Below, piece by piece: positions 627-24,450 of a stretch of 58,362 nucleotides of DNA. The notes under the pieces were generated by a model. That model was not told the DNA's origin. It ran no database searches and worked only from the letters and a program-made list of their open reading frames with translations. A program made the position numbers and the translations under genes. Source of the stretch: a virus. Numbering within the stretch: the stretch's first letter is position 1; each line of letters opens with the position of its first letter. The stretch is from positions 1-58,362 of IMG/VR virus record IMGVR_UViG_3300047469_000377; one strand, 5' to 3'.

Positions 627-1102
627 GACGCGTCCTCAAACTGGATGTCGAGAAACTTCCACCCGCCTCCGAGCACGGGAGTCGGCGTGCCGGTCCAGGA
701 AAGGGCCCGCTTCCCGCCAAACTGCAGCTTCCAGTGCGGTCCGAAGGTCCTAGACAGGACGTGCGCCTCGATACCGTCGAAGAAACAAGACTTGGATCCG
801 TCGGGCTCAACCTCGGGCCGACACTCAACGACGGACATGAACTCGGTGAGGGCGTCGGCGCGCTCACCGTTGTATAGAATCGCTCCTCGGTAACCGGCGC
901 GCGCGACAGCATCTTCGATATCATCCGGCTCGATAGGTTGAACCTCGTCGACCTCGATGCCCAGCTGACCGAGGACTTCGTCCAGCACATGCCCAGCGCC
1001 ACGGTGGTCAAGCCCAGATGGGCCGATGTGATAGCCGGCGAGTTCCTGGATCTTCTCGACAAGCCTGGTCCGCGCTGCGTCGTCGATGGTGATCTTGATC
1101 AT
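623..1102 (-). CDS. Hypothetical protein downstream of integrase, 159 aa
   Basis: The protein starts MIKITIDDAARTRLVEKIQE and ends in FEDAS. The ATG at 1102 overlaps the integrase stop by ATGA, which decides the start; the longer open frame upstream runs antisense-like through integrase and is not credible. The middle is acidic (EVDEVQPIEPDDIEDAVARA) and the C-terminal part is Trp- and Gly-rich. No family is recognised. Its place next to int suggests co-expression with the recombination genes, but nothing in it says it takes part. Confidence 0.75.
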   Translation of the reverse strand: MIKITIDDAARTRLVEKIQELAGYHIGPSGLDHRGAGHVLDEVLGQLGIEVDEVQPIEPDDIEDAVARAGYRGAILYNGERADALTEFMSVVECRPEVEPDGSKSCFFDGIEAHVLSRTFGPHWKLQFGGKRALSWTGTPTPVLGGGWKFLDIQFEDAS

Positions 1103-2331
1103 GCGATCTTCTCGGCGTTGAGGATGAGCCCGCGCTTGGCCTGGGCGTTCCAGGCGACCTCGTTGTCGCGGGGCAGATAGGTGCTCAGGATCTGCTCGAC
1201 CGAGCCGATCTTGTGGCCGGTGATCGAGGCGATCTCGGGAACGGTGCATCCGGCCCGGGCCATCTGGACGACGCAGCTGTGGCGCAGGGCCCGCACCTGC
1301 AGCTTGCGCGCCGTCTCCGGCGCGGCCACGATCGCCCGCTCGCAGAGGTCGGCGAACAGATGGCCGAGGCGCTGCTCCGGGAACGGGCGGCCGGTGGCGG
1401 CGTCGCGGAACAGATAGAAGCTGTCGTCGCTCTCGCATGCCCGCAGGACGGCCCTGAGGCGCGCGCTGATGGGGATCGTGACATAGGCGTCGGTCTTGTC
1501 CTGCCAGAAGCGAAACACGCCCTGGGCGGCGTCGTACTCGGGCGCCTTCTTTCCGGCCTTCCAGTCGTTGGTCCAGCGGAAGAGGCGCACATCGGTCAGG
1601 CGCTGGCCGATCTCCCATTCGGTGAGCAGGAGCGCGGCGAGGCCCGGCTGGCCCAGGGCCGCCGCGGCGAAGGCGTAGAACTCGACGTCAGCCGGTTCCC
1701 AGATCGTCACCCGGCTCCTGGGCGCGGCCATCTTGATGTTCGCGGCCGGGTTCTTCTCGATCCACTCCAGCCGCACCGCATGGTCGAGGAGCATCTTCAG
1801 CACGATCTTGATGTGGCGCCGTGTCGTGGGCCGGTCGTCGTAGAGGGCGAGGAACTTCTCGATCTTGTCGTAGCTGATGGTCGAGACCAGGGGATCGCCG
1901 CGGCTGGCCGACCAGTCCTCGAGCAAACCGGCATGATAGGCGTAGCCCTTCTGCGTGCGCGGCTTCCCGTCCTTGAACCGCTGGCTTTGCTGCCAGGACC
2001 TGTTGAGCGTGGGGAGATCGCGGCGCTCGACGAAGCCGCCCATGCGATCGCCCTTCAGGCGGCGATAGAGTTCGGCCGCGCCCTCGCGGATCCGGCGCAC
2101 CTCGTCGGCGTCGTCGAGGTTGCCGACTCGCTTACCTTCGAGGGGTAGCGGGGTTAGAGGCAGCCAGCCGGAGGGGAGGAGTCGATGCGGCACCTGGAAG
2201 AACACGCGAAACGTTCCGTCCTTGCGCGGGCGCAGGGTGACGTACTTTCCGAGCTCGAGCGTCACGGATGGCATCGGGGTCGACGTCCCATTCGTCGCGG
2301 ACTGCGACGGCGGCGGTGGTTGGGTCGGCAT
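1099..2331 (-). CDS. int: Tyrosine recombinase (phage integrase)
   Basis: This is a site-specific recombinase that should insert and excise the phage chromosome at att sites. The 410-residue frame has an N-terminal arm-type region, a core-binding region at about 120-200 and a catalytic domain at about 210-390. Visible active-site residues are R244 (GQRLTDVRLFRW), K279 in the hairpin before YVTIPIS, R350, H373 in ITGHK and Y385 in STYLP. The usual His three residues before the second Arg (HxLR) is Arg347 here (RALRHS). The first 200 bases overlap the HTH gene upstream. An internal ATG at 2274 (Met20) is an alternative start; neither start has a strong ribosome-binding site. Confidence 0.93.
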   Translation of the reverse strand: MPTQPPPPSQSATNGTSTPMPSVTLELGKYVTLRPRKDGTFRVFFQVPHRLLPSGWLPLTPLPLEGKRVGNLDDADEVRRIREGAAELYRRLKGDRMGGFVERRDLPTLNRSWQQSQRFKDGKPRTQKGYAYHAGLLEDWSASRGDPLVSTISYDKIEKFLALYDDRPTTRRHIKIVLKMLLDHAVRLEWIEKNPAANIKMAAPRSRVTIWEPADVEFYAFAAAALGQPGLAALLLTEWEIGQRLTDVRLFRWTNDWKAGKKAPEYDAAQGVFRFWQDKTDAYVTIPISARLRAVLRACESDDSFYLFRDAATGRPFPEQRLGHLFADLCERAIVAAPETARKLQVRALRHSCVVQMARAGCTVPEIASITGHKIGSVEQILSTYLPRDNEVAWNAQAKRGLILNAEKIA

Positions 2332-7298: not shown

Positions 7299-7980
7299 GG
7301 GGCACCCGCTTGAACTCGACGGCCCAAACCCACGGATCGCTGTTCCAGGCGTCTACCCCGTTGATGTCCATCCAGAGGAGAGCGAAGGCGGTACGGCCGG
7401 GGCAGGTTGCCCTGGGCACCCCCATGAAGCCGCTCCAGACCGTGTCTCCTAGGCTGGCATGGCGCACGCCTTCGGCGAGCCCCTCCGCGTCGGTGATCGA
7501 TTGGACGCGCTCGACGGTGACGCTGATGATTTGCAGTTGGATGCGGGATGCCCAGCGCGGCATGTGGATGCTGGGCCGGCCGCTCTCGACCCGGCCCCTG
7601 AACACGCCGACCCCTGTGGTCCGATCACCTTCGACCTTCCGCGTCGCGCCGTTGGCGAGGTAGCGGATGGTTGGGCCGATCAGCTCTTGGTAGTCACGCT
7701 CGTGGGGTTCGCACGGTTCATGGCGCTGCACGGCCCAGGCTTCCCGGACCCAGAGCTGATGGCCTGCAGCGCCGTAAGGGCACCGCACCGAGACCTCTTC
7801 GCCAGAGGCGACGCGGAAGATTGCAATCGCGACACCGTCGACACCGACGCTCATCCGCAGAAACTCGGCGGTGGTGAGGTCGTAGTGGCGGTGCTTGATG
7901 ATGCGCCGCGTCTTGGTCTTCAGGTCGTCCAGGATGGCCAGCACCATAGGCGCGCTGAACAGGAGCGGTTTCTCACGCAC
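7291..7980 (-). CDS. ASCH-like phage protein
   Basis: The 229-residue protein begins KPLLFSAPMVLAILDDLKTKTRRIIK (residues 4-29), the hallmark opening of a widespread phage family with an ASCH/PUA-like beta-barrel. It continues with LWVREAW, then a stretch around IHMPRWASRIQLQIISV that ends in a strand with RVQSITDAEGLAEG. ASCH domains resemble RNA-binding PUA domains and some hydrolyse modified nucleosides; some phage members are annotated as 'morphogenetic'. Here the early-operon location argues for an early role, perhaps on RNA or nucleosides, rather than virion assembly. It overlaps the DUF5131 gene by 8 bases. Confidence 0.75.
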   Translation of the reverse strand: MREKPLLFSAPMVLAILDDLKTKTRRIIKHRHYDLTTAEFLRMSVGVDGVAIAIFRVASGEEVSVRCPYGAAGHQLWVREAWAVQRHEPCEPHERDYQELIGPTIRYLANGATRKVEGDRTTGVGVFRGRVESGRPSIHMPRWASRIQLQIISVTVERVQSITDAEGLAEGVRHASLGDTVWSGFMGVPRATCPGRTAFALLWMDINGVDAWNSDPWVWAVEFKRVPHA

Positions 7981-9079
7981 GGGCGATCTCCGGCAGTTGG
8001 CGGACTCTCAGGTCCTGCGGCCACTCGGCCATGTCGCCGCCCTTGCGATCACGCAGGCGGATGCGGCAGGGCGCGCCCTGGTAGTCTTCGCGGAAGCGGT
8101 TGATGTCGTGATCGACATCGGCCGGGTCGATGTTCGGCCATTCGTGGGGCTCGCAGCCCTCGAAGCCGACGTCGTTGCGATCGGTGACGACAGCGCCCAG
8201 CTGCTTGACGAAGACCGGCGTTCCGGACCGCTCACACTGGCGGACGATGCTGCGGACGTGGGGCGTCCAGGTCTGGCGCGCCTTGGGCCCGCTCTCGCCG
8301 CCGACGATCACCCAGTCGAGACGACGATAGCCATCACGGCGCGGTGGTCCGTTGATGACCATGCGGCCCTTACCGCCGCAGGTGTGACACTTGCCCTTCG
8401 GCCAGCGGCCGAGGATGCCGGTTCCGCCGCAGAGGTCGCAGTGATCGGTGCGGAAGTCGAGGTCGATGCCGTCCAGCAGGGGCTCGGCCGACAGGAATCG
8501 GGGGCCGAAGCCATGGCAGTCGAAGAAGGCATCGCGCCGGGCGTCATACTGCTCCTGGTTCTCGGCCGAGAAGCCCAGCCAGATATGGTCCTTGAACCAG
8601 AGATCATGCAGCGGCGGTTGGTCGGGGGCGATCGCCGCCATGGCGGCGCGGATCGCTGCGCTGCGGACGCCTGCCGATGGACCCGGCTGTCCCAGATATT
8701 CTGCCATCCGCGCCGGGCGCTTGGTCAGGATCTGATAGGTGTGCTGGCGGGCCAGCAGCATGACCGCGAAGATCCGGTCGACCACGTCGAAGGGGACGTC
8801 GTCGTGGAAGAGATCGCTCATGCTGTTGACGAAGATCACCCTGGGCTTCTTCCAGCGCAGCGGCTGGGTGACGATGCTGTCGGGCGCGACGTTGACCTGG
8901 CCCGTCCAGACCGCCCCGGCCTTGGTCTTCTGAACCGTGCCGGCGTAGTGGCCGACGCCCATGGCAGTCAGGCGCCCGGCCATCTTCATGGCGTAGCAGT
9001 TGGTGCAGCCTGGGCTGACGATGCTGCAACCGACGATCGGGTTCCAGGTCGAGCCGGTCCATTCGATCTTGCTGGTCAA
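7973..9079 (-). CDS. DUF5131 (phage Gp37/Gp68 family) protein
   Basis: The 368-residue protein opens with IEWTGSTWNPIVGC and has Cys at 18, 25 and 28 (C-x6-C-x2-C), the signature of the phage Gp37/Gp68 (DUF5131) family. That cluster suggests a metal or iron-sulfur site in a TIM-barrel-like fold. Later motifs KPRVIFVNSMSDLFH, ILTKRPARM and DWVIVGGESG are also typical. An inserted zinc-ribbon at about 213-238 has two CxxCxGxG-like units, resembling a DnaJ zinc finger. The family's reaction is not established; a nucleic-acid or tRNA modification role is often suspected. Confidence 0.85.
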   Translation of the reverse strand: MTSKIEWTGSTWNPIVGCSIVSPGCTNCYAMKMAGRLTAMGVGHYAGTVQKTKAGAVWTGQVNVAPDSIVTQPLRWKKPRVIFVNSMSDLFHDDVPFDVVDRIFAVMLLARQHTYQILTKRPARMAEYLGQPGPSAGVRSAAIRAAMAAIAPDQPPLHDLWFKDHIWLGFSAENQEQYDARRDAFFDCHGFGPRFLSAEPLLDGIDLDFRTDHCDLCGGTGILGRWPKGKCHTCGGKGRMVINGPPRRDGYRRLDWVIVGGESGPKARQTWTPHVRSIVRQCERSGTPVFVKQLGAVVTDRNDVGFEGCEPHEWPNIDPADVDHDINRFREDYQGAPCRIRLRDRKGGDMAEWPQDLRVRQLPEIARA

Positions 9080-9659: not shown

Positions 9660-10480
9660 TCAGGCTCCCGCCTCGGCCAGAGCCGGGGCGTCCAAGAGGG
9701 AAGGGAGGGGTGTGAGATCGATCGTGACCGGCAGCCACTTGGCCAGGTCCGCCTTGATCTGTTCGAAGTTGACCGGATGCTGGGCTCGAAAGTCAGGCAT
9801 CGCGGGATCGGCGACCCAGCGGCCTTCACCGATCGGCTTGATCCAGGTGTGGATCCAGCGGCGGTAATCGATGTCCAGGGCCTTGAAGTCGGCGCGGGTG
9901 ACGTAGCCCCGAGCCTGAAGGATCACAGCGATCTTGATCGCCTTGACCTTCCATGTGGTCAGCTTCACGGGGCCAGATGCGCCGGCGGCGACATCGGGGA
10001 TCCAGTCCGGCAGCGGGTGTCGTTGATCGGGGCAGCGATCCGGCCAGGACTGATGCGAGAACTCGTCATTGTCGTGCCAGCTGTCGATGACCGTGGGCAG
10101 GGCGGGCCTGAAGGCCGGGCCCTTCCAGCGACCCCAGGTCTCAGGCTTCCAGCCGGTGATGATGACGACGCCGAGACGGCGGGCGATCGCGGCGAGACCG
10201 TTGACGGCCTTCGCGCCGGGAACAAGCACGGCCCAGCAGTCGGGACCGGTGCCGGAGCCATAGGCATGATCATGCTCGAGGGTCTGGCAGAGCACCTTGA
10301 CGTTCAAGGAAAGCTTGGCCTCGACGCCGATCTGGAAGCCGTCTTCGGGGCGGACGAGCAGGATGTCCCACTCAGCCGTCTCTGCGTAGGCAGTCCATCC
10401 GTGGTGAGCCGCCCAGGCGATGAAGTCCGCAGCCAGGGCGGCTTCGGTTTCCCATACTGGGCTGAGCGGCTCGCGGCGCA

Positions 10481-10481
<1 letters not shown>
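9660..10481 (-). CDS. PD-(D/E)XK nuclease-like protein
   Basis: The start is the ATG at 10481, coupled to the upstream stop as TGATG. Of 273 residues, about 30-70 carry an endonuclease-like core: AETAEWDILLV with Asp39, then IGVEAKLSLNVKVLCQTL with Glu54-Ala-Lys56 and Gln66. This is the D...ExK pattern of restriction-endonuclease-fold proteins. The C-terminal half (residues about 175-230) contains KIAVILQARGYVTRADFKAL, a winged-helix-like segment, then aromatic residues. It may be a DNA nuclease or a degenerate member that only binds DNA; no experimental family name is claimed. Confidence 0.6.
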
Positions 10482-11257
<776 letters not shown>

Positions 11258-11294: not shown

Positions 11295-12245
11295 TCAGAC
11301 AGGGGCCGTCTCGGGCGGCATCCAGGCGACGATCCCGCAGAGGGTCTTGGCGTTGGCCAGGATCTCGGCGATCTGCTCGTCGGTGTAGGTCGCCGACGCC
11401 GCGAAGAGGGTGACCGTGCCGGGCCCGGCGTGTTCTTCGTCATCATCGACGACGACGTGGTCGCACTCGATCTGCTGGCCAGCCTGCAACTTGCCACCGG
11501 TCGGATGGGCGCAGTCGGCATGGCAATCGACGTCGGTGTAGGGAAAACAGACGTCGCCGGGCCGGACGGCCTTGCCGCAGCCTTCACAGAGGGGCGGGAA
11601 GGCGCGGCGTTCCGAATGATCCAGCAACTCGACCCAGGCCCGCAGCTCGGCGAGCACGACGCTGCGCGGCACCTTCGGGCCCAGCAGATCCAGGCGATAG
11701 TCTTCGGCCCCGAGGCGGTGGACCAGCATGCTGATCGTGGCCGTCGCGGACTCGCGCCAGAAGCGACGCTCATCCTCGAGCGCGAGATAATCGGCGCTGG
11801 GAACTGCGGTGTCTTCGGGAGTCTTGTGGAGCGCAACGAGCGGCCCAGCCTCCGCTGCGCCGGCAACGCTGATCGGCTGCTCGGCGATGCCGGCGGCCGT
11901 CATCCAGCGTTCGCGCAGGGCAGGCGAGGCGGTCGGCCAGAGGTTGGCGCTGTGGTAGGCGTCGCACATGGCCTCCGCCATGCGCCGGCGACGGTGGTCG
12001 GCGGGGAAGGCCGCCTTGAACAGGCTGTCCTTGCCGTCGAAGTGGGCTGTGATCGCGCCGGTCGACAACTGCGCCTCGGTGGCGATCTGGCGCATCGTGA
12101 TCAGGGTGAAGCCGTGCTTTAGGAACAGCTTCGCCGCCGCGGCGAGAACGGCCTCGCGCGTCGCGGCGGCCATGTCGGCGCGGGTGATGCGGACCACGTC
12201 GCACGCTTGGGTCGGCTCGGCCGTGGCCGTGATCGGCAGGGACAT
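11295..12245 (-). CDS. TetR-type HTH fused to a Cys-rich phage domain
   Basis: Residues about 28-80 are a clear TetR-family DNA-binding domain: TREAVLAAAAKLFLKHGF, then TMRQIATEAQLSTGAITAHF and GKDSLFKAAF. The usual TetR ligand-binding helical domain is not obvious. Instead residues about 150-215 are helical (LLGPKVPRSVVLAELRAWVELL) and are followed by a Cys-rich segment, with CEGCGKAVRPGDVCF and CHADCAHP, that looks like a zinc site. The protein may be a regulator whose sensor is a metal-binding module. A 37-base gap separates it from the next gene downstream. Confidence 0.75.
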   Translation of the reverse strand: MSLPITATAEPTQACDVVRITRADMAAATREAVLAAAAKLFLKHGFTLITMRQIATEAQLSTGAITAHFDGKDSLFKAAFPADHRRRRMAEAMCDAYHSANLWPTASPALRERWMTAAGIAEQPISVAGAAEAGPLVALHKTPEDTAVPSADYLALEDERRFWRESATATISMLVHRLGAEDYRLDLLGPKVPRSVVLAELRAWVELLDHSERRAFPPLCEGCGKAVRPGDVCFPYTDVDCHADCAHPTGGKLQAGQQIECDHVVVDDDEEHAGPGTVTLFAASATYTDEQIAEILANAKTLCGIVAWMPPETAPV

Positions 12246-12246
12246 A

Positions 12247-12525
12247 TCAGTCGGCTCCGTGGATGAGGTCGCGCAGCCGGTCGGCGCGCGCGGGATCGGG
12301 GATGGGCAGGACGAGACGGGCGGACATGCCGTCGGCGGCGGCCTCGACCTTCCAGACGCCGGCCAGGTCGAGGGCGCGGAGATCGCGCACCGCGTCGGCC
12401 ATGCGGCTCAGGGCCTTGTCGCGCGACGCCTCGGCGCGGGCCTCCGCCTCGCGCTTGGCCAGGGCCATGCGCTCGACATCGCCAATGGTGACGAACTCGC
12501 GGGTCTGGTGGGGTATCGCGGACAT
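12247..12525 (-). CDS. Hypothetical protein, 92 aa
   Basis: The ATG at 12525 is coupled to the upstream stop (TGATG), which decides the start over a longer open frame. The N-terminal half is a charged, probably coiled-coil helix (MALAKREAEARAEASRDKAL). The C-terminal half contains strands VWKVEAAADG and ARLVLPIPDP. No family is recognised; it is probably a small dimeric protein. Confidence 0.65.
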   Translation of the reverse strand: MSAIPHQTREFVTIGDVERMALAKREAEARAEASRDKALSRMADAVRDLRALDLAGVWKVEAAADGMSARLVLPIPDPARADRLRDLIHGAD

Positions 12526-12830
12526 CAGGTCAGCGCCGGCAGGGTGACGATGACGGCGCGGCGCAGGAACGGTCCGGCGCAGACGCCGCCCGCATAGAGA
12601 TGCCCGGCGCGCGTGGCGTGGAAGGTGTAGCCCCGGCCGCCCTTGGGGCAGACGAACCGATCGGTGCGGTCCAGGGCCACGACGGTGAAGCCGGTGCGCT
12701 CCAGCGCGCCCTCGGCCACCGTCCTGAAGACGCTGCGAGTGCACGCGCTGATCAGGAGCCAGAACAGGATGGCCATCAGGATTGCCATCAGGATTGCCGT
12801 GCCGAACGCCTTGAACTCACGACGGTTCAT
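12525..12830 (-). CDS. Small membrane protein with MAIL repeat in its TM helix
   Basis: The start is the ATG at 12830 (ATGA overlap), giving 101 residues. MNRREFKAFG precedes a single hydrophobic helix (ILMAILMAILFWLLISAC), so the N-terminus is probably cytoplasmic and the rest periplasmic. The rest includes three more Cys residues, counting FVCPKGGRGYTF and GGVCAGPFL. The helix is built from a 12-base tandem repeat coding for Met-Ala-Ile-Leu. The role is unknown; early phage membrane proteins often affect superinfection or host physiology. Confidence 0.65.
   Translation of the reverse strand: MNRREFKAFGTAILMAILMAILFWLLISACTRSVFRTVAEGALERTGFTVVALDRTDRFVCPKGGRGYTFHATRAGHLYAGGVCAGPFLRRAVIVTLPALT
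12766..12798. repeat. 12-base tandem repeat inside a TM segment
   Basis: There are about 2.75 copies of a 12-base unit (AGGATGGCCATC, then AGGATTGCCATC, then AGGATTGCC) on the plus strand, coding on the minus strand for the repeated Met-Ala-Ile-Leu of the 12525-12830 protein. Gain or loss of a unit would change the length of the membrane helix by four residues without a frameshift. Confidence 0.85.
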
Positions 12831-13045
12831 GGCTGGATCTCCGAAAGCAGCTCGTCGATCAGGACGCGCGCGCAGCGCAGTTGCTCGGCGCGGGTGAGTT
12901 GGGTGGTCGCAGCGGTGATCCCCGGGCAGACCTTGGCTGCCTCGGCCCACGCGCCGGCGACGACCTGCAGCGGGGCTGGTAGGTCGATGGCGCTGAGCAG
13001 GATGGCGGCGGCTTGGCGCTGCCGGGGATCAACCGCGTCGGCCAT
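12827..13045 (-). CDS. Hypothetical protein, 72 aa
   Basis: A small helical protein starting MADAVDPRQRQAAAILLSAI, with two Cys residues (AKVCPGI and LRCARVL). It is linked to both neighbours by overlaps (ATGA below, TGATG above). There is no membrane segment long enough to be certain. Unknown family. Confidence 0.65.
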   Translation of the reverse strand: MADAVDPRQRQAAAILLSAIDLPAPLQVVAGAWAEAAKVCPGITAATTQLTRAEQLRCARVLIDELLSEIQP

Positions 13046-13293
13046 CAGGCCGTCGCCTGGATCGGGGCGATGGTTCCGGTGGAGCCGGCCATGTTGCGCG
13101 GGGCCTTGCCGCCCTTCGCGCCGGCCTGGGCCGCGAGGCCGGGGCGGGTGCTGAAGCTGCGCTTGTCGGACGGCACGTTGGAGCCGCCCTTCCGGGCGAT
13201 CTCGGTGCGCTTCTCCGGGCTCATCGACGCGAAGCCGCGACGGCTCTTGGCCTTGGGCGCCGACGGGTCGGCGGTGGGATTGGTCGTCATCAT
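13045..13293 (-). CDS. KGG-motif (stress-induced-type) small basic protein
   Basis: The 82-residue protein contains the repeated pattern RRGFASMSPEKRTEIARKGG and then QAGAKGGKAP, matching the KGG-repeat family seen in bacterial stress-induced proteins such as GsiB-like and fungal Con-10-like proteins. It is probably intrinsically disordered and hydrophilic. Such genes are frequent passengers in phages; the molecular role is unknown. It lies directly downstream (53 bases) of the SciP-like gene. Confidence 0.75.
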   Translation of the reverse strand: MMTTNPTADPSAPKAKSRRGFASMSPEKRTEIARKGGSNVPSDKRSFSTRPGLAAQAGAKGGKAPRNMAGSTGTIAPIQATA

Positions 13294-13346: not shown

Positions 13347-13574
13347 CTAGGTCAGGACCTGCAGCTTGGTGATCGCCAGACCGTGCTGACCGTGCTTGCG
13401 GTGCCGGTCGTTCCAGGTGACGAGCTCATCTAGCGAGAGGTCGTGGGCCTGGGTGACTTGGTCGATCGTCACTTCGTGACGGCGCAGCCCCAGGATGACG
13501 GCGGCCTTGCGGCCCGGCGTCCAGCGGGCGACCGGGGCCAGAAGCTCGGCGGCGACGGGTGAGAGCCGGACCAT
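13347..13574 (-). CDS. SciP-like (DUF1153) putative CtrA inhibitor
   Basis: The 75-residue protein matches the DUF1153/SciP pattern: RWTPGRKAAVILGLRR (17-32), then DLSLDELVTWNDRHRKHGQHGL (split here at 45-58 and 59-66), then ITKLQ (68-72). SciP in Caulobacter is a small HTH protein that binds CtrA and blocks its transcriptional activity in newborn cells. Conserved landmarks kept here are the R-W and R-K-A of helix one, the L-S-x-x-E-x-x-x-W of the HTH, and the H-G-x-x-G-L / T-x-x-Q end. It lacks the usual N-terminal tail, so it is slightly shorter than host SciP (about 90 aa). The start is coupled by TGATG to the preceding membrane-protein gene. Phage control of CtrA is an inference. Confidence 0.82.
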   Translation of the reverse strand: MVRLSPVAAELLAPVARWTPGRKAAVILGLRRHEVTIDQVTQAHDLSLDELVTWNDRHRKHGQHGLAITKLQVLT

Positions 13575-13804
13575 CAGACGCCACCGGCGAGGCGGTGAGC
13601 GCCGACCTGGGCCATCAGCACCAGGAAGGTGACGAGGGCGGCGGCGCGGGCGCCGTTGTCGAGCCGGTCCCAGACCGACGTGACGCGAAGGCGGGTCGGT
13701 CGCCGCACGGCGCGGCGGACGTAGACGATCGCCAGGACGCCGAGACCGATGATCCAGGCGGCGATCAGTCCAAAGATGATGATGTCGGCGGTGGTCTTGC
13801 TCAT
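13574..13804 (-). CDS. Two-helix small membrane protein
   Basis: Two hydrophobic segments are visible in 76 residues: DIIIFGLIAAWIIGLGVLAI near the N-terminus and AAALVTFLVLMAQVGA near the C-terminus, joined by a basic loop (RRAVRRPTRLRVTS). This fits a small inner-membrane hairpin protein. It is directly coupled upstream of the SciP-like gene. The function is unknown. Confidence 0.65.
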   Translation of the reverse strand: MSKTTADIIIFGLIAAWIIGLGVLAIVYVRRAVRRPTRLRVTSVWDRLDNGARAAALVTFLVLMAQVGAHRLAGGV

Positions 13805-15143: not shown

Positions 15144-15172
15144 AAGTGTGCACGCGTGCACGTACTCGTCAA
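15144..15172 (-). promoter_or_regulatory. Putative early-left promoter (PL)
   Basis: On the minus strand TTGACG (15172-15167) is a good -35 element, and a weak -10 (ACACTT or CACACT) lies 16-17 bases downstream around 15150-15144. The 15148-15161 palindrome fills the spacer, as expected if repressor binding blocks RNA polymerase. The transcript would start about 20 bases before the ATG at 15116. Confidence 0.55.
15148..15161. promoter_or_regulatory. Operator palindrome GTGCACGCGTGCAC (copy 1)
   Basis: A perfect 14-base palindrome lies between the -35 and -10 of the leftward promoter. An identical copy is found 33 bases away and another in the repressor/Cro intergenic region. Confidence 0.85.
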
Positions 15173-15180
15173 GGCGGAAT

Positions 15181-15194
15181 GTGCACGCGTGCAC
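15181..15194. promoter_or_regulatory. Operator palindrome GTGCACGCGTGCAC (copy 2)
   Basis: A second identical palindrome, 33 bases (about three helical turns) from copy 1 centre to centre, so bound dimers would lie on the same face of the DNA and could cooperate. A GTGCAC half-site follows at 15216-15221, near the start of the rightward 15244 gene. Confidence 0.85.
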
Positions 15195-15748: not shown

Positions 15749-16126
15749 TCAGCCCGCCGAGAACTTGCGGGCCAGCTCGTTGAACAGAGCGCGCTGTTGC
15801 TCTTCCGAGGCCTGGAGCACGTCCGCGATGTAGTCCCTAACTTCAGGCGCGGCATCCCGCGTCAGCGGCTCGTTGACGGCCACCGCGGCCCGGCGGAGGC
15901 CCTCGGGTATCGCGTTCCCCGTCCGCTCTGAAAAGCCGAGAAGGGCGAGGTAGCCGATCGTATTGGTCCCTGCCAGCGCGCGACTGACGGTCCACCTGGT
16001 CACGCCGAGGGCGTCAGCTGCTTGCTGATGGTTCCAGCCTTCTTGGGCCATCACCGACTTCAGGTAGCGGCTGATCTCTTCCCGGTATTGCGCGACGGCG
16101 CTGGATTTCGTGGCGGGTGCGGTCAT
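15749..16126 (-). CDS. Xre-family repressor (CI-like)
   Basis: The 125-residue protein has an HTH at about 33-53 (NHQQAADALGVTRWTVSRAL) in a Xre/lambda-type helical domain and a helical C-terminal part (SEEQQRALFNELARKFSAG). There is no peptidase domain, so it is not of the self-cleaving LexA type. I start at the ATG at 16126 because CATAAT lies 7 bases upstream in the -10 position; the longer frame runs over operators. Position opposite a Cro-like gene across shared operators identifies it as the likely immunity repressor. Confidence 0.8.
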   Translation of the reverse strand: MTAPATKSSAVAQYREEISRYLKSVMAQEGWNHQQAADALGVTRWTVSRALAGTNTIGYLALLGFSERTGNAIPEGLRRAAVAVNEPLTRDAAPEVRDYIADVLQASEEQQRALFNELARKFSAG

Positions 16127-16139
16127 GGCCAGCATTATG
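16127..16139 (-). promoter_or_regulatory. Repressor promoter (PRM-like), -10 adjacent to ATG
   Basis: CATAAT (16139-16134 on the minus strand, 5 of 6 matches to TATAAT) ends 7 bases before the repressor ATG, so transcription would begin at or next to the start codon. No good -35 is present; instead GTGCAC-type sites at 16164-16185 lie just upstream, as in promoters activated by their own repressor. Confidence 0.55.
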
Positions 16140-16171
16140 GCAAACCCAGGCCCAAGCTGCGCTGTGCAGCT

Positions 16172-16185
16172 GTGCACAAGTGCAT
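16172..16185. promoter_or_regulatory. Imperfect operator GTGCACAAGTGCAT
   Basis: A diverged copy of the operator; it keeps the GTGCAC left half and a GTGCA right half (with CAT instead of CAC). A further GTGCAGCTGTGCAC arrangement overlaps it at 16164-16177. A weaker site next to a perfect one (16197-16210) is the usual arrangement for graded repressor/Cro occupancy. Confidence 0.65.
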
Positions 16186-16187
16186 CA

Positions 16188-16215
16188 TTGACAAAGGTGC
16201 ACGCGTGCACATACT
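16188..16215 (+). promoter_or_regulatory. Rightward switch promoter (PR-like)
   Basis: Consensus TTGACA (16188-16193), a 16-base spacer, then CATACT (16210-16215). The perfect palindrome at 16197-16210 fills the spacer. The cro-like ATG at 16222 is only 7 bases past the -10, so the mRNA should start on the AUG. Confidence 0.75.
16197..16210. promoter_or_regulatory. Operator palindrome GTGCACGCGTGCAC (copy 3)
   Basis: Identical to the two copies at the left promoter; occupies the -35/-10 spacer of the rightward promoter, so bound repressor would exclude RNA polymerase. Confidence 0.85.
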
Positions 16216-16221
16216 GCGCTC

Positions 16222-16446
16222 ATGCACAGTTCCTCGCCCTCCGAAGCGGTCGTCGCTCCCGAAGTCATCGAGTTGGAGGCCTTCGCGGCTGACAACGGCG
16301 TGCCGATGCCGGAAGCGCTGGCCCATGCGGGCGTCGCCAAGACGACCTATTGGCGCTGGCGTCATGCTGGAACCGAGCCTCACACGCCGACCCTCAGAAA
16401 ACTGAAGTCGTCGATCAGCGTGCTCAGCGAGGCGAGGGCGTCGTGA
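16222..16446 (+). CDS. Cro-like HTH protein
   Basis: The 74-residue protein has an HTH-like segment at about 30-48 (PEALAHAGVAKTTYWRWRHA) and a basic C-terminal helix. It is divergent from the Xre repressor and shares the operator region with it. The promoter spacing suggests a leaderless mRNA with no ribosome-binding site. The role as a Cro-type antagonist is inferred from size and position. Confidence 0.75.
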   Translation: MHSSSPSEAVVAPEVIELEAFAADNGVPMPEALAHAGVAKTTYWRWRHAGTEPHTPTLRKLKSSISVLSEARAS

Positions 16447-19224: not shown

Positions 19225-20136
19225 ATGGCCGTGTCCGCCGAGCTCAACGCCCAGGCCGCGATGTTGCGCAGCCAGGGCCTGACCTATCCCCAGATCGGCG
19301 CCGCGATCGGTCTGCACCACGACCAGGTGCGCCGCACGCTGCGCAGCGGGCCCAGCCCGGCCAGCTGGTGGACGCCGGAGCGCGACGCCGAGGCGGCACG
19401 CCTCTACCAGGCCGGCGAGACCCTGTCCGACGTCGCGGCGCAGATGGCGGCGCCCAGCAAGAGCGCGGTGATGTGCCGTCTCCGCCGGCTCGGCGTGGTG
19501 AGGTCCGAAGAGATCAACGTGGCGAACCGCGCCAGCAGCGGCCACCGAGCCGCGGCACGCACCAATGGCGGCAAGTCGTCCGACCTGGCGTGGTGGACCC
19601 CGGCGCGCGACGCCGAGGCCGCGCGGCTGCTGCTGTCAGGCATGGCTTTCGCCGTGATCGCACGGACCCTCGGCGCGACCAGCAAAAACGCGGTTATCGG
19701 TCGCATGCACCGGCTCGGCGTCAAGCGGCCGAAAGCGAGCCCGCCCGTCGCGATCGCCCCCGTCGTGCGGATCGCCGCGCCGCGCCCCGCGCCGACCCCG
19801 CGCCCCGCGCCGACCCCGCGCCCCGCGCCGACGGCGACCCCGAAGCCGAGCAGCTGGCGCGAGCCGGTGGTCAAGCTGGTCAGCGATCGCCCCGCGCTGG
19901 CCGTGGCCGCCGCCTTCGCGCCGCCGAACCCGAAGCCGTTCGAAGAGCGCCTCCGCTCGCAGTGCGCCTGGCCCATCGATCAGGTCGACGGGTCGATGCT
20001 GGCCTGCTGCGAGCCGATCAGCGGCCAACGGTGGTGCGCCCATCACACGGTGATCGGCTCGCGCCCGGCGCGGACGCCGAAAAAAACGCCGTTCCAGCGC
20101 CGGGCCGGCGGTTTCGACTTCCGGAGGCTGGCGTAA
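19225..20136 (+). CDS. GcrA-like regulator with three HTH units
   Basis: The 303-residue protein is a GcrA-family regulator with an expanded N-terminus. An HTH-like unit at 11-40 (AMLRSQGLTYPQIGAAIGLH) precedes two GcrA-type units beginning WWTP at 48-91 and 123-166 (ATSKNAVIGRMHRLGVKRP). A repeated Pro-Ala linker (RPAPTPRPAPTP, about 187-203) follows, then a Cys/His domain QCAWPI (C247) ... ACC (C261-262) ... WCAHH (C271, H273). Host GcrA has one HTH and a C-terminal domain that contacts sigma-70, and it favours GANTC-methylated promoters. Function on phage or host promoters is inferred. Confidence 0.85.
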   Translation: MAVSAELNAQAAMLRSQGLTYPQIGAAIGLHHDQVRRTLRSGPSPASWWTPERDAEAARLYQAGETLSDVAAQMAAPSKSAVMCRLRRLGVVRSEEINVANRASSGHRAAARTNGGKSSDLAWWTPARDAEAARLLLSGMAFAVIARTLGATSKNAVIGRMHRLGVKRPKASPPVAIAPVVRIAAPRPAPTPRPAPTPRPAPTATPKPSSWREPVVKLVSDRPALAVAAAFAPPNPKPFEERLRSQCAWPIDQVDGSMLACCEPISGQRWCAHHTVIGSRPARTPKKTPFQRRAGGFDFRRLA

Positions 20137-21693: not shown

Positions 21694-21965
21694 TGGCCGA
21701 GGCGACCAAGCCCATCGACACCGTGACGGTGCACCGTACGGCGATCGCTGAGATTTTCGCAGAGGCTGACCGCCGTGCGAACGCAGGCGAGCCCAACGGG
21801 ACGCCGGCCCAGTTCGAGGGCGAGAGCGATTCCGCGTTCCACCTCCGCGCCGCCGACACCTTCATCCACATCGCCTGCGAACACGCTGCAGGCGGGCCCT
21901 GGTTCCCCGGCATCACGGGCCTGCACGCGAAACAGCGTTCTGAAGCGGCGGAGCCCGTGCTGTGA
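21693..21965 (+). CDS. Hypothetical protein, 90 aa
   Basis: Starts ATG at 21693, coupled to the preceding stop (TGATG). Mostly helical with polar residues (AIAEIFAEADRRANAGEPNG, FHLRAADTFIHIACEHAAGG). No recognised family. The stop overlaps the GTG start of the cytosine methyltransferase. Confidence 0.65.
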   Translation: MAEATKPIDTVTVHRTAIAEIFAEADRRANAGEPNGTPAQFEGESDSAFHLRAADTFIHIACEHAAGGPWFPGITGLHAKQRSEAAEPVL

Positions 21966-22651
21966 CCCGGCCGCTTCTACTCGATCTCTTTTGCAAGGCC
22001 GGCGGCGCCGCGCAGGGCTACTACGATGCCGGGTTTGAGGTTGTCGGCGTCGATATCGAGCCGCAGCCGCGCTACCCGTTCGAGTGCATCCGAAGCGATG
22101 CGATGGCCCTCGACTGCGACTTTCTTGAACGCTTTGCGGCCTTTCACGCCAGCCCGCCCTGCCAGGGTTACAGCGCGATGCGCCATGCACCCGGCGCAAG
22201 AGGTGCGCCAAAGCTGATCCGACCCGTGCGGCAGATGCTGCGCGCCACAGGGCGGCCCTACATCATCGAGAACGTCGAGCAGGCCAGGATCGACATGATC
22301 CGTCCTGTAGCGCTTTGCGGGTCCATGTTCGGTCTCGGCGCCGAGGGGCACCAGTTGCGCCGGCATCGTCTGTTCGAGAGCAACATCCCCATCACCGCCC
22401 CGCGCCCGTGCGCTCATGCGTCGCCGGTTATCGGCGTCTATGGCGGACATGCTCGGCGCCGCGGCGCGGCTCACGGCGGTCGCGGGACGCGCGACGTCTG
22501 GATCGGCGGGCACAAGGGCGCGGCCAGCCTAGCGCTAGGCATCGACTGGATGACGCTCGAAGAACTGTCGGAGTCGATCCCGCCCGCCTTCACGAAGCAC
22601 CTCGGTGCGCAGCTGCTCGAGCACTTGGCCCAAAGCGCGAGGGCCGCATGA
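21962..22651 (+). CDS. C5-cytosine DNA methyltransferase
   Basis: The 229-residue protein starts with GTG at 21962 (GTGA overlap). Motif I is LLLDLFCKAGGAAQGY (5-20), motif IV has the catalytic Cys67 in ASPPCQGYS, motif VI is IIENV (101-105), motif VIII QLRRHR (131-136), and a motif X-like FTKHLGAQL lies at the end. This is the Dcm/HhaI fold but short: only about 50 residues lie between motifs VIII and X, so target recognition is minimal. It probably protects phage DNA against restriction or marks it; no partner restriction enzyme is nearby, so it looks like an orphan. Confidence 0.9.
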   Translation: MTRPLLLDLFCKAGGAAQGYYDAGFEVVGVDIEPQPRYPFECIRSDAMALDCDFLERFAAFHASPPCQGYSAMRHAPGARGAPKLIRPVRQMLRATGRPYIIENVEQARIDMIRPVALCGSMFGLGAEGHQLRRHRLFESNIPITAPRPCAHASPVIGVYGGHARRRGAAHGGRGTRDVWIGGHKGAASLALGIDWMTLEELSESIPPAFTKHLGAQLLEHLAQSARAA

Positions 22652-22863
22652 GCGAGATCGAACGCGCCCTCAGGGTCGACGCCGGCATCCGCGCCGGGAT
22701 CTCGACCGCTGCCGCCCTGCAGATCGAACGCGCCCGCGCCGGTAGCGCCTTGCGCGAGATCTATCTGCTCGCCGGCGAGGCCGCGCTCGACGCCGTCATC
22801 ATCGCCCTGCGCCGTGAAGCGGTGGTCGGCCATCCCCCTATCGTTGGAGACCTGACGCCGTGA
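22648..22863 (+). CDS. Hypothetical protein between methyltransferases, 71 aa
   Basis: ATGA overlap with the cytosine methyltransferase and GTGA overlap with the following adenine-type methyltransferase. Helical and Ala-rich (AGISTAAALQIERARAGSAL, ALDAVIIALRREAVVG). Could be a small partner of one of the methyltransferases; no motif is recognised. Confidence 0.65.
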   Translation: MSEIERALRVDAGIRAGISTAAALQIERARAGSALREIYLLAGEAALDAVIIALRREAVVGHPPIVGDLTP

Positions 22864-23666
22864 CCTCCTTTTCCCGCGTCGAGACGATCGGCGACTCCAC
22901 GCTTTACTTGGGTGATGCGCTTGCCGTGATGCAGGCCGTGCCCAGCGTGAAGGCCCGCGCGCTGATCTCCGACCCACCGTATTGCTCCGGCGGGTTCACC
23001 GAGGCCGCCAAGCGATCGGCGAAGGGGCAGGGCCTCCGGTCCGAAACCTTGCGCGAAAGCGACTGGTTCGGCGGCGACAACATGACGTCCGCCGGTCTGC
23101 AATGGATGCTGCGGTCGATCGCCGTCGCCTTCAAGGGCCACGCCTTGGCCGAGGACTGCACCGCCAGCTTCTTCGCCGACTGGCGCATGGTGCCGCTGCT
23201 TGCCACGGCCATCGAGAGCGCGGGGCTGCGCTATCAGGGCATGCCGGTCTGGGACAAGCAGGCCGCGGGCCTGGGGACCGGCTTCCGGGCCCAGCACGAG
23301 TGCATCATGCACTTCTCGATCGACACCCCGCGCTATCACTCCAAGAGCTACGGCAACGTGATCCGCGCGCCTCGCATGTCGTCCGACCGCGACCATCCCA
23401 CCGAGAAGCCGGTCATGCTGATGGCCGCCCTGGTCGATGTGCAGACCGAGCCGGGCTCGCTGGTGCTGGATCCGTTCATGGGATCGGGCAGCACGGGCGT
23501 CGCGGCCGTGGGCATGGGGCGCCGCTTCGTCGGAATAGAGCATGACCCGGTTCACTTCGACACAGCCTGTCGCCGGATCGAGGCGGCTTACAACCAGCCG
23601 CGCCTTTTCGCCGAGCCCCCCCCCCGGTCCGTCCAGCCGTCCATGTTCGCGGACGGTGCGGCATGA
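22860..23666 (+). CDS. Beta-class DNA methyltransferase (DPPY)
   Basis: The 268-residue protein starts GTG at 22860. Motif IV is DPPY (38-41), the target-recognition region is about 65-160, then HPTEKP (179-184) and motif I DPFMGSGSTGVAA (204-216) with EHD (227-229) following. The order (IV before I) puts it in the beta class, to which CcrM also belongs; DPPY commonly indicates N6-adenine methylation. It ends ...PPPRSVQPSMFADGAA, encoded through a run of 10 C. The sequence specificity cannot be read from the sequence. Confidence 0.88.
   Translation: MTSFSRVETIGDSTLYLGDALAVMQAVPSVKARALISDPPYCSGGFTEAAKRSAKGQGLRSETLRESDWFGGDNMTSAGLQWMLRSIAVAFKGHALAEDCTASFFADWRMVPLLATAIESAGLRYQGMPVWDKQAAGLGTGFRAQHECIMHFSIDTPRYHSKSYGNVIRAPRMSSDRDHPTEKPVMLMAALVDVQTEPGSLVLDPFMGSGSTGVAAVGMGRRFVGIEHDPVHFDTACRRIEAAYNQPRLFAEPPPRSVQPSMFADGAA
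23616..23625 (+). repeat. C10 homopolymer in the methyltransferase C-terminus
   Basis: Ten consecutive C (after GAG, before GGTCC) encode the start of the EPPPRS tail, 14 codons before the stop. Runs of this length slip during replication; a change of one base alters only the last dozen residues. The paralogue downstream has the same feature at the same position. Confidence 0.9.
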
Positions 23667-23709
23667 TCCGGCATCGGCCCCCCCTCAAACTTAACTGTGG
23701 CGTGGCGGC

Positions 23710-24450
23710 ATGAGCCGGATCGAGATTATCGGCGACGCCACGCTGTATCTCGGCGACTGCCGCGAAGTCTTGCCTACGCTGGGTGAAGTCGATGCGGTGG
23801 TCACAGACCCGCCGTTCGGAATGTCGTTTCAGTCGAATTTTCGCGGACAGCAGCACGCCAAGATCGCGAACGATGACGATGTCGGCCTGTTGCAATGGGC
23901 TTGTGAAATCCCGGTTCGCCACAGCCGCTATGTCTTCTGCCGGTGGGATAACATCCGGGACGTGCCAAAGCCAAAGAGCCTGGTGACGTGGGTCAAGAAC
24001 AACTGGTCCATGGGCGACCTGGAGCATGAGCACGCCCGGCAAACTGAGGTTGCCTGCTTCTATCCCGGCCCAGACCATCGCTTCCCCCGCGGTCGCCCGA
24101 CGGACGTGATCGAGGCTGCTCGGACCGGGAACAACTTCCATCCCACCGAGAAGCCAGTCGCGCTCATGGAGGCGATGATCCGATGGACGGAAGGGCGAGT
24201 GCTAGACCCGTTCATGGGATCGGGAACGACCGGGGTCGCATGCTCGCTGCTGTCACGGCCCTTCATCGGTTGTGAAGTCGACGAGAGCTATTTTGATACC
24301 GCCTGCCGGCGCATCGAAGAGGCGTTTAAGCAGCCGCGCCTTATGATCGAGCCCCCCCCCCCCGGCCGTTCAGCCATCCATGTTCTCGGACGGTGCGGCA
24401 TGAACCGGGTTCGGAACCTCGCTCCATATGAATATTGCGAGGCGGCCTGA
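23710..24450 (+). CDS. Beta-class DNA methyltransferase (DPPF), frameshifted tail
   Basis: The 246-residue protein is a paralogue of its upstream neighbour. Motif IV is DPPF (33-36), followed by HPTEKP (144-149), DPFMGSGTTGVA (166-177) and CEVDESYF. Its shared end (QPRL, then PPP) runs into 12 C. In the frame read here the tail becomes GRSAIHVLGRCG... and stops in a TGATG overlap with dnaB. In the alternative frame after the C-run the DNA reads AVQPSMFSDGAA and stop (24365-24403), almost identical to the paralogue's VQPSMFADGAA. The C-run has therefore shifted this gene's tail by one base. The catalytic core is unaffected. Confidence 0.88.
   Translation: MSRIEIIGDATLYLGDCREVLPTLGEVDAVVTDPPFGMSFQSNFRGQQHAKIANDDDVGLLQWACEIPVRHSRYVFCRWDNIRDVPKPKSLVTWVKNNWSMGDLEHEHARQTEVACFYPGPDHRFPRGRPTDVIEAARTGNNFHPTEKPVALMEAMIRWTEGRVLDPFMGSGTTGVACSLLSRPFIGCEVDESYFDTACRRIEEAFKQPRLMIEPPPPGRSAIHVLGRCGMNRVRNLAPYEYCEAA
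24352..24363 (+). repeat. C12 homopolymer with evidence of slippage
   Basis: Twelve C after GAG encode PPPP. Eleven C would restore the paralogue-like ending AVQPSMFSDGAA; twelve put the gene in a frame that ends on the dnaB start. This is the longest homopolymer I noticed in the window. Confidence 0.9.

Follow-up and report, generated by a model that had tools for sequence, protein, structure and literature searches.

Does a tailed phage carry its own version of SciP, and if so, what could the protein do to the CtrA circuit of its host? The question arises from a small open reading frame at 13347-13574 of the window, by which we mean the whole 58,362-base virus record analysed here. A sequence-only reading had taken this frame for a SciP-like inhibitor of CtrA that is expressed from an early operon. 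We asked what the encoded protein is, where else it occurs, how its gene is likely to be controlled, and which of the possible actions on the host fits best.

The DUF1153 protein at 13347-13574

The open reading frame runs from 13574 to 13347 on the minus strand, starts with ATG and comprises 75 codons, while the plus-strand reading of the same interval is interrupted by stops. Its position-specific GC content (0.75/0.42/0.88) is typical of coding DNA, and its ATG shares bases with the stop codon of the preceding ORF (TGATG). Positions 27-84 of the 87-position Pfam profile for DUF1153 (PF06627) match the 75-aa protein, with a score of 42.4 bits (cut-off 23.5) and an E-value of 7.6e-11; this is the single DUF1153 match in the whole record. 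The RW/RKA, LS-x-x-E-x-x-x-W and HG-x-x-GL landmarks named in the sequence-only reading are each present, as R17-W18, R22-K23-A24, L46-S47-x-x-E50-x-x-x-W54 and H61-G62-x-x-G65-L66. The profile score thus bears out the proposed kinship, and the interval almost certainly encodes a DUF1153 homologue. The same reading had remarked on a missing N-terminal tail. Upstream of the ATG the frame continues without a stop, yet neither a start codon nor the VIGPxGxPLTxxDLPP motif of the tail occurs there; therefore, the tail is truly missing. According to the AlphaFold2 prediction (six-row alignment, mean pLDDT 84), the protein is all-helical, with helices at residues 6-12, 20-31, 37-44 and 48-66. Its only significant sequence relatives in the PDB are 2oa4 and 2jrt, both NMR structures of DUF1153 proteins, and the same two entries come out on top in a fold search with the predicted structure, with weak E-values (0.36 and 0.51).

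Homology to the family does not settle whether the protein is SciP in the strict sense. It has the HTH core of SciP (RW..RKA, LxxxE...W, G..GL), and the VIGPxGxPLTxxDLPP tail is lacking; against the NCBIfam equivalog model for SciP (NF051866) it reaches 44.6 bits, below the cut-off of 100. With this model, the phage proteins described below score 41-64 bits, compared to 122-142 bits for six full-length cellular and plasmid proteins. When the cellular and plasmid proteins are trimmed to the phage-like core, they still keep 91-107 bits, whereas the four metagenomic phage proteins score 41-52. The low phage scores are therefore due partly to the loss of the tail and partly to divergence of the core. 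In the alignments, the C-terminal TRIQ-YR stretch of the phage proteins has diverged as well. Compared with SciP from Caulobacter and other Alphaproteobacteria, the window protein belongs to the same Pfam family, keeps the RW..RKA, L(S/T)xxE...W and HGxxGL core and shares the predicted all-helical HTH fold, but it lacks the tail, its core is diverged (44.6 bits against 122-142 for full-length proteins), and its gene lies in a predicted phage early operon instead of beside ctrA. We regard it as a DUF1153 homologue that is no SciP equivalog by the NF051866 test and that may nevertheless act in a SciP-like manner.

The helix-turn-helix could have a different source, as the remnant of an accessory transposase protein of the IS3/IS66 type that is unrelated to SciP. 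Weak similarities to HTH_Tnp_1 (13.9 bits, below 24.1) and IS66 TnpA (18.5 bits, below 74) would fit such an origin. However, the DUF1153 score is three times as high, no ORF for a transposase partner was seen adjoining the gene, and the coupled gene position is conserved across phages. This origin is disfavoured and seems to us very improbable.

Relatives in phages and other mobile elements

Used alone as a query, the 75-aa protein found no matches in IMG/VR, cultured phages or genome contigs, and a two-sequence alignment found nothing in genome contigs. Alignment-based and profile searches recovered four further phages with a tail-less DUF1153 protein, namely G001, G007, G065 and the Erythrobacter phage XM05. 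Identity to the window protein is 51% in G001 and 42% in G007, the latter being a cousin of the window phage with long synteny and a terminase 75% identical. The DUF1153 gene overlaps the preceding ORF, start codon on stop codon, in G007, G065 and the window; in G001, a two-base gap separates the two. A DUF5131 gene lies downstream of the DUF1153 gene in all four of these phages, and each of them also carries a GcrA homologue. XM05 gave no GcrA match, so that the co-occurrence of GcrA and DUF1153 rests on four of five phages, which are small numbers. Since homologues occupy similar locations in three further phages, the gene is not a product of chance; it is real and phage-borne.

The XM05 protein, annotated as hypothetical protein XM05_97, is likewise tail-less and shows the same form in a cultured phage (65 bits). 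Its resemblance to cellular SciP is closer than that of the window protein, and XM05 is a larger phage (152 kb); XM05_97 alone as a query found no IMG/VR relative, and an alignment of five sequences contained no segment of sufficient conservation to scan with. Most members of the phage group do without the gene, which was found in 1 of 48 relatives by terminase and in 1 of 26 by the conserved 258-aa protein described below, and we therefore consider it accessory. In a tree built from the 56-residue core, support is poor, at 27-67% for the nodes that decide where the phage proteins fall, so we claim neither a single nor a multiple origin of the phage forms.

DUF1153 genes also travel on other mobile elements. 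Three sphingomonad plasmids (L002, L006 and L007) carry one, but unlike the phage proteins these SciP homologues are full length with the tail, and the two that were scanned, L002 and L006, pass the SciP equivalog cut-off. Two of the three plasmids are typed as conjugative and one as mobilizable. Full-length SciP genes in L010/L011 and L012 were considered as phage-borne and rejected: they lie near contig ends and were taken for host flanks, with MnmA-like and LuxR-like genes beside SciP in L012, as in S. meliloti, and a DNA ligase gene in L010/L011 (partly recognised by eye). A further full-length SciP of 124 bits is found at 9929-10222 (plus strand) of L013, a prophage contig from an isolate, about 1 kb from the contig end. 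It is surrounded by small ORFs, three of which match PHROGs families of unknown function, and whether it sits on phage or host DNA is uncertain.

The carrier phage and the leftward operon

The window encodes an integrase (1099-2331, minus strand; phrog_1 integrase, E 1e-24), a DnaB-type helicase, a replication initiator, a terminase, a portal, a major head protein and a tape measure. This combination of integrase, replication and structural genes indicates a temperate tailed phage. Rfam and tRNA scans of the window returned nothing, and end repeats of 14 bases or more are absent from it. Its GC content is about 66%, and a stretch of the helicase gene shows 71% nucleotide identity to Caulobacter phage DMCA. 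The CcrM site GANTC occurs 51 times against 294 expected from dinucleotide shuffles, a five- to six-fold depletion, and is the rarest among eight gapped palindromes of the same make-up, which fits a host with CcrM-type methylation. Together with the GcrA and DUF1153 homologues, the GC content, the DMCA-like helicase stretch and the lack of GANTC suggest that the host is probably an alphaproteobacterium, perhaps of the Caulobacterales. The GcrA homologue (19225-20136, plus strand) is a 303-aa protein with an extra N-terminal HTH; it matches PF07750 with 76.9 bits (cut-off 26.9), aligns to the solved GcrA 7ye1 and stays below the NCBIfam GcrA equivalog cut-off (52 against 280). GcrA homologues above cut-off are frequent in related phages, in 8 of 29 and 4 of 26 records. 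Further along the plus strand, at 21962-24450, three genes stand in a row: an ORF weakly resembling a C5-methylase and two genes for N6/N4 DNA methylases. The latter two (22860-23666 and 23710-24450) were considered as CcrM, an identity that was dropped at 60.8 and 58.2 bits against an equivalog cut-off of 830.

Control of the SciP-like gene can be read from the region upstream of it. The 14-bp palindrome GTGCACGCGTGCAC occurs in exactly three copies in 58 kb, at 15148-15161, 15181-15194 and 16197-16210. One of the two left copies lies within the 16-base spacer of a PL-like promoter (TTGACG-16-CACACT, 15145-15172), the sole such site on the minus strand, and the right copy lies within the spacer of a matching PR-like promoter on the plus strand (TTGACA-16-CATACT, 16188-16215). 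The whole window holds no other site of this promoter shape. Between the two promoters stands a candidate immunity repressor, an HTH protein encoded on the minus strand (15749-16210; phrog_2328 transcriptional repressor, E 3.5e-6, with HTH Pfam matches). Directly behind the PR-like promoter, and divergent from the repressor gene, is a 74-aa ORF (16222-16446, plus strand) that is Cro-like by position only. As judged from these elements, putative PL and PR promoters under one repressor form a lambda-like layout. About 1.6 kb of the leftward run precedes the SciP-like gene; most genes in this run overlap or are closely spaced, and no terminator-like sites were seen on the minus strand between the left promoter and the gene. 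This promoter, operator and repressor anatomy agrees with the early operon of the sequence-only reading and places the SciP-like gene, very probably, in an early-left operon.

The two membrane micro-proteins and the KGG protein named as neighbours in the same reading were also recovered, all on the minus strand. The ORF whose stop overlaps the SciP-like start encodes a 76-aa membrane micro-protein (13574-13804) with a hydropathy peak of 2.8 over 19 residues. A 76-aa hydrophobic ORF takes the same coupled position in G007, although blastp returned no match for it. Downstream of the SciP-like gene follow an 82-aa KGG-repeat protein (13045-13293; PF10685, 28.4 bits against 20.4), a 72-aa ORF with no Pfam match (12827-13045) and the second membrane protein, of about 101 aa (12525-12830; hydropathy peak 2.7), for which a longer ORF matches phrog_902 with E 5e-4. 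The next small protein (12247-12525) has a relative after the SciP-like gene in both G001 (49% over 57 aa by blastp) and G007 (32% over 81 aa). Beyond it, the strand encodes a 316-aa TetR-N-domain protein (11295-12245; PF00440, 46.7 bits against 24), with a relative in the same G007 module (57% over 76 aa), and a 258-aa protein (10481-11257) with a conserved N-terminal part and a tail of YAYADA repeats, which is 66% identical over 148 aa in G007 and has relatives in 26 IMG/VR contigs. The frames overlapping its long tail yield PTPTPT and VGVGVG ORFs. The DUF5131 protein (7973-9079; PF07505, 234 bits) is 42% identical in G001 and 45% in G007, and its G065 copy was recognised by eye.

Possible action on the host CtrA/SciP circuit

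SciP of Caulobacter is reported to contact CtrA, to leave its DNA binding unperturbed and to block the recruitment of RNA polymerase to CtrA-activated promoters (PMC6169604). It also binds GCGAC-type DNA sites located upstream of those for CtrA and acts as a repressor of ctrA itself (PMC4287350). These reports bear on the proposal that the phage protein lowers CtrA activity and thereby relieves the silencing of the replication origin. The second half of this proposal is weak: SciP leaves CtrA on the DNA (PMC6169604), so release of the origin does not follow directly. Lower transcription of ctrA could lift CtrA from the origin, but only indirectly. The first half may apply. The DUF1153/SciP homology is compatible with it; the failed equivalog cut-off, the diverged core and the loss of the tail region discussed below speak against it. 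We hold a specific lowering of CtrA-activated transcription to be possible but somewhat doubtful.

Two loss-of-function suppressor alleles of SciP, T24I and T65A, have been described (PMC4241560, PMC7591256). In S. meliloti SciP, only one pair of threonines is 41 residues apart: T21, which belongs to the tail, and T62, which opens the LTxEEF helix. By this spacing in the S. meliloti protein, and not by the Caulobacter sequence itself, T24I appears to map to the tail that the phage protein lacks, whereas the T65A position is kept as a serine (S47). One could imagine an anti-SciP decoy, in which the tail-less core would bind SciP sites, CtrA or host SciP but could not repress; it would relieve host SciP and leave CtrA-activated genes on in the infected cell. 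All five tail-less phage forms are without the region where T24I appears to map, and the serine kept at the T65A position also counts in favour of a decoy; but the mapping depends on a 41-residue spacing in the S. meliloti protein, and the core changes might abolish binding too. We consider a decoy unlikely.

Early operons often contain small HTH regulators, and the SciP-type HTH might have been retargeted to act without CtrA, on promoters of the phage or on unrelated promoters of the host. The divergence of the core and of the TRIQ-YR stretch would agree with this, as would the lack of any CtrA box (TTAA-N7-TTAA, one mismatch allowed) in the window. On the other hand, the count of SciP motifs (GCGNC-N5-GNCGC/GCGAC type) in the window is not above chance (11 against 14), and the co-occurrence with GcrA in four metagenomic phages points to an interest in steering the cell cycle of the host. 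Retargeting is, in our estimate, also unlikely, though slightly less so than a decoy.

In the most likely reading, the protein is an early regulator through which the phage acts on the CtrA/SciP circuit of its host. The 75-aa protein would be a small HTH protein of the DUF1153 family, tail-less and diverged from SciP. A repressor-controlled, PL-like operon would keep its gene silent in the lysogen and make the protein early, at entry into the lytic programme, a timing that we infer from the operon. The protein would then modulate transcription at promoters controlled by CtrA/SciP in the host, presumably through DNA binding and contact with CtrA, while the phage GcrA homologue from the rightward region would act on sigma-70 promoters. 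As a result, the cell-cycle transcription of the infected cell would be shifted to the advantage of the phage. The lack of a CtrA box and of an excess of SciP motifs in the window and the accessory nature of the gene count against this reading, as do the failed equivalog cut-off, the diverged core and the lost tail. We give about even chances to a role in the CtrA/SciP circuit, and likewise to the whole proposal of a tail-less, diverged SciP homologue that is made early and modulates host cell-cycle transcription. A bolder version, to which we attach a low probability, is a two-part take-over kit, in which GcrA and the tail-less SciP, the latter as a decoy, a dominant-negative or a constitutive form, are freed from the repressor at lytic start. 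That this kit would convert a CtrA co-repressor, so that temperate phages set the state of host cell-cycle transcription, is equally speculative.

Phage links to this circuit have precedents. The phiCbK-like Caulobacter phages carry GcrA homologues (PMC3556154), which are likewise phage-borne homologues of a host cell-cycle regulator, and the window phage has a GcrA as well. SciP is a different regulator, however, one whose targets are CtrA-activated promoters, and the phage version lacks the tail; the word SciP does not occur in that paper. In phages of Alphaproteobacteria that show CtrA-dependent lytic deferment, the phage genome contains sites to which the CtrA of the host binds (PMC9437464). 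That study tested CtrA sites in phage genomes, and SciP figures there only as a binding motif. Both those phages and ours are tied to the host CtrA circuit, but the window phage has no CtrA site and carries a regulator gene instead. None of the open-access papers searched describes a SciP homologue carried by a phage.

That several other phages also carry a SciP relative, three of them in a similar neighbourhood, suggests that these phages interfere with host cell-cycle control. A tail-less form that recurs in phages, mostly in the company of GcrA, would amount to a second target through which phages influence the cell cycle of Alphaproteobacteria. In addition, the natural truncation could show what the tail of SciP does, whether in CtrA contact, repression or protein stability.
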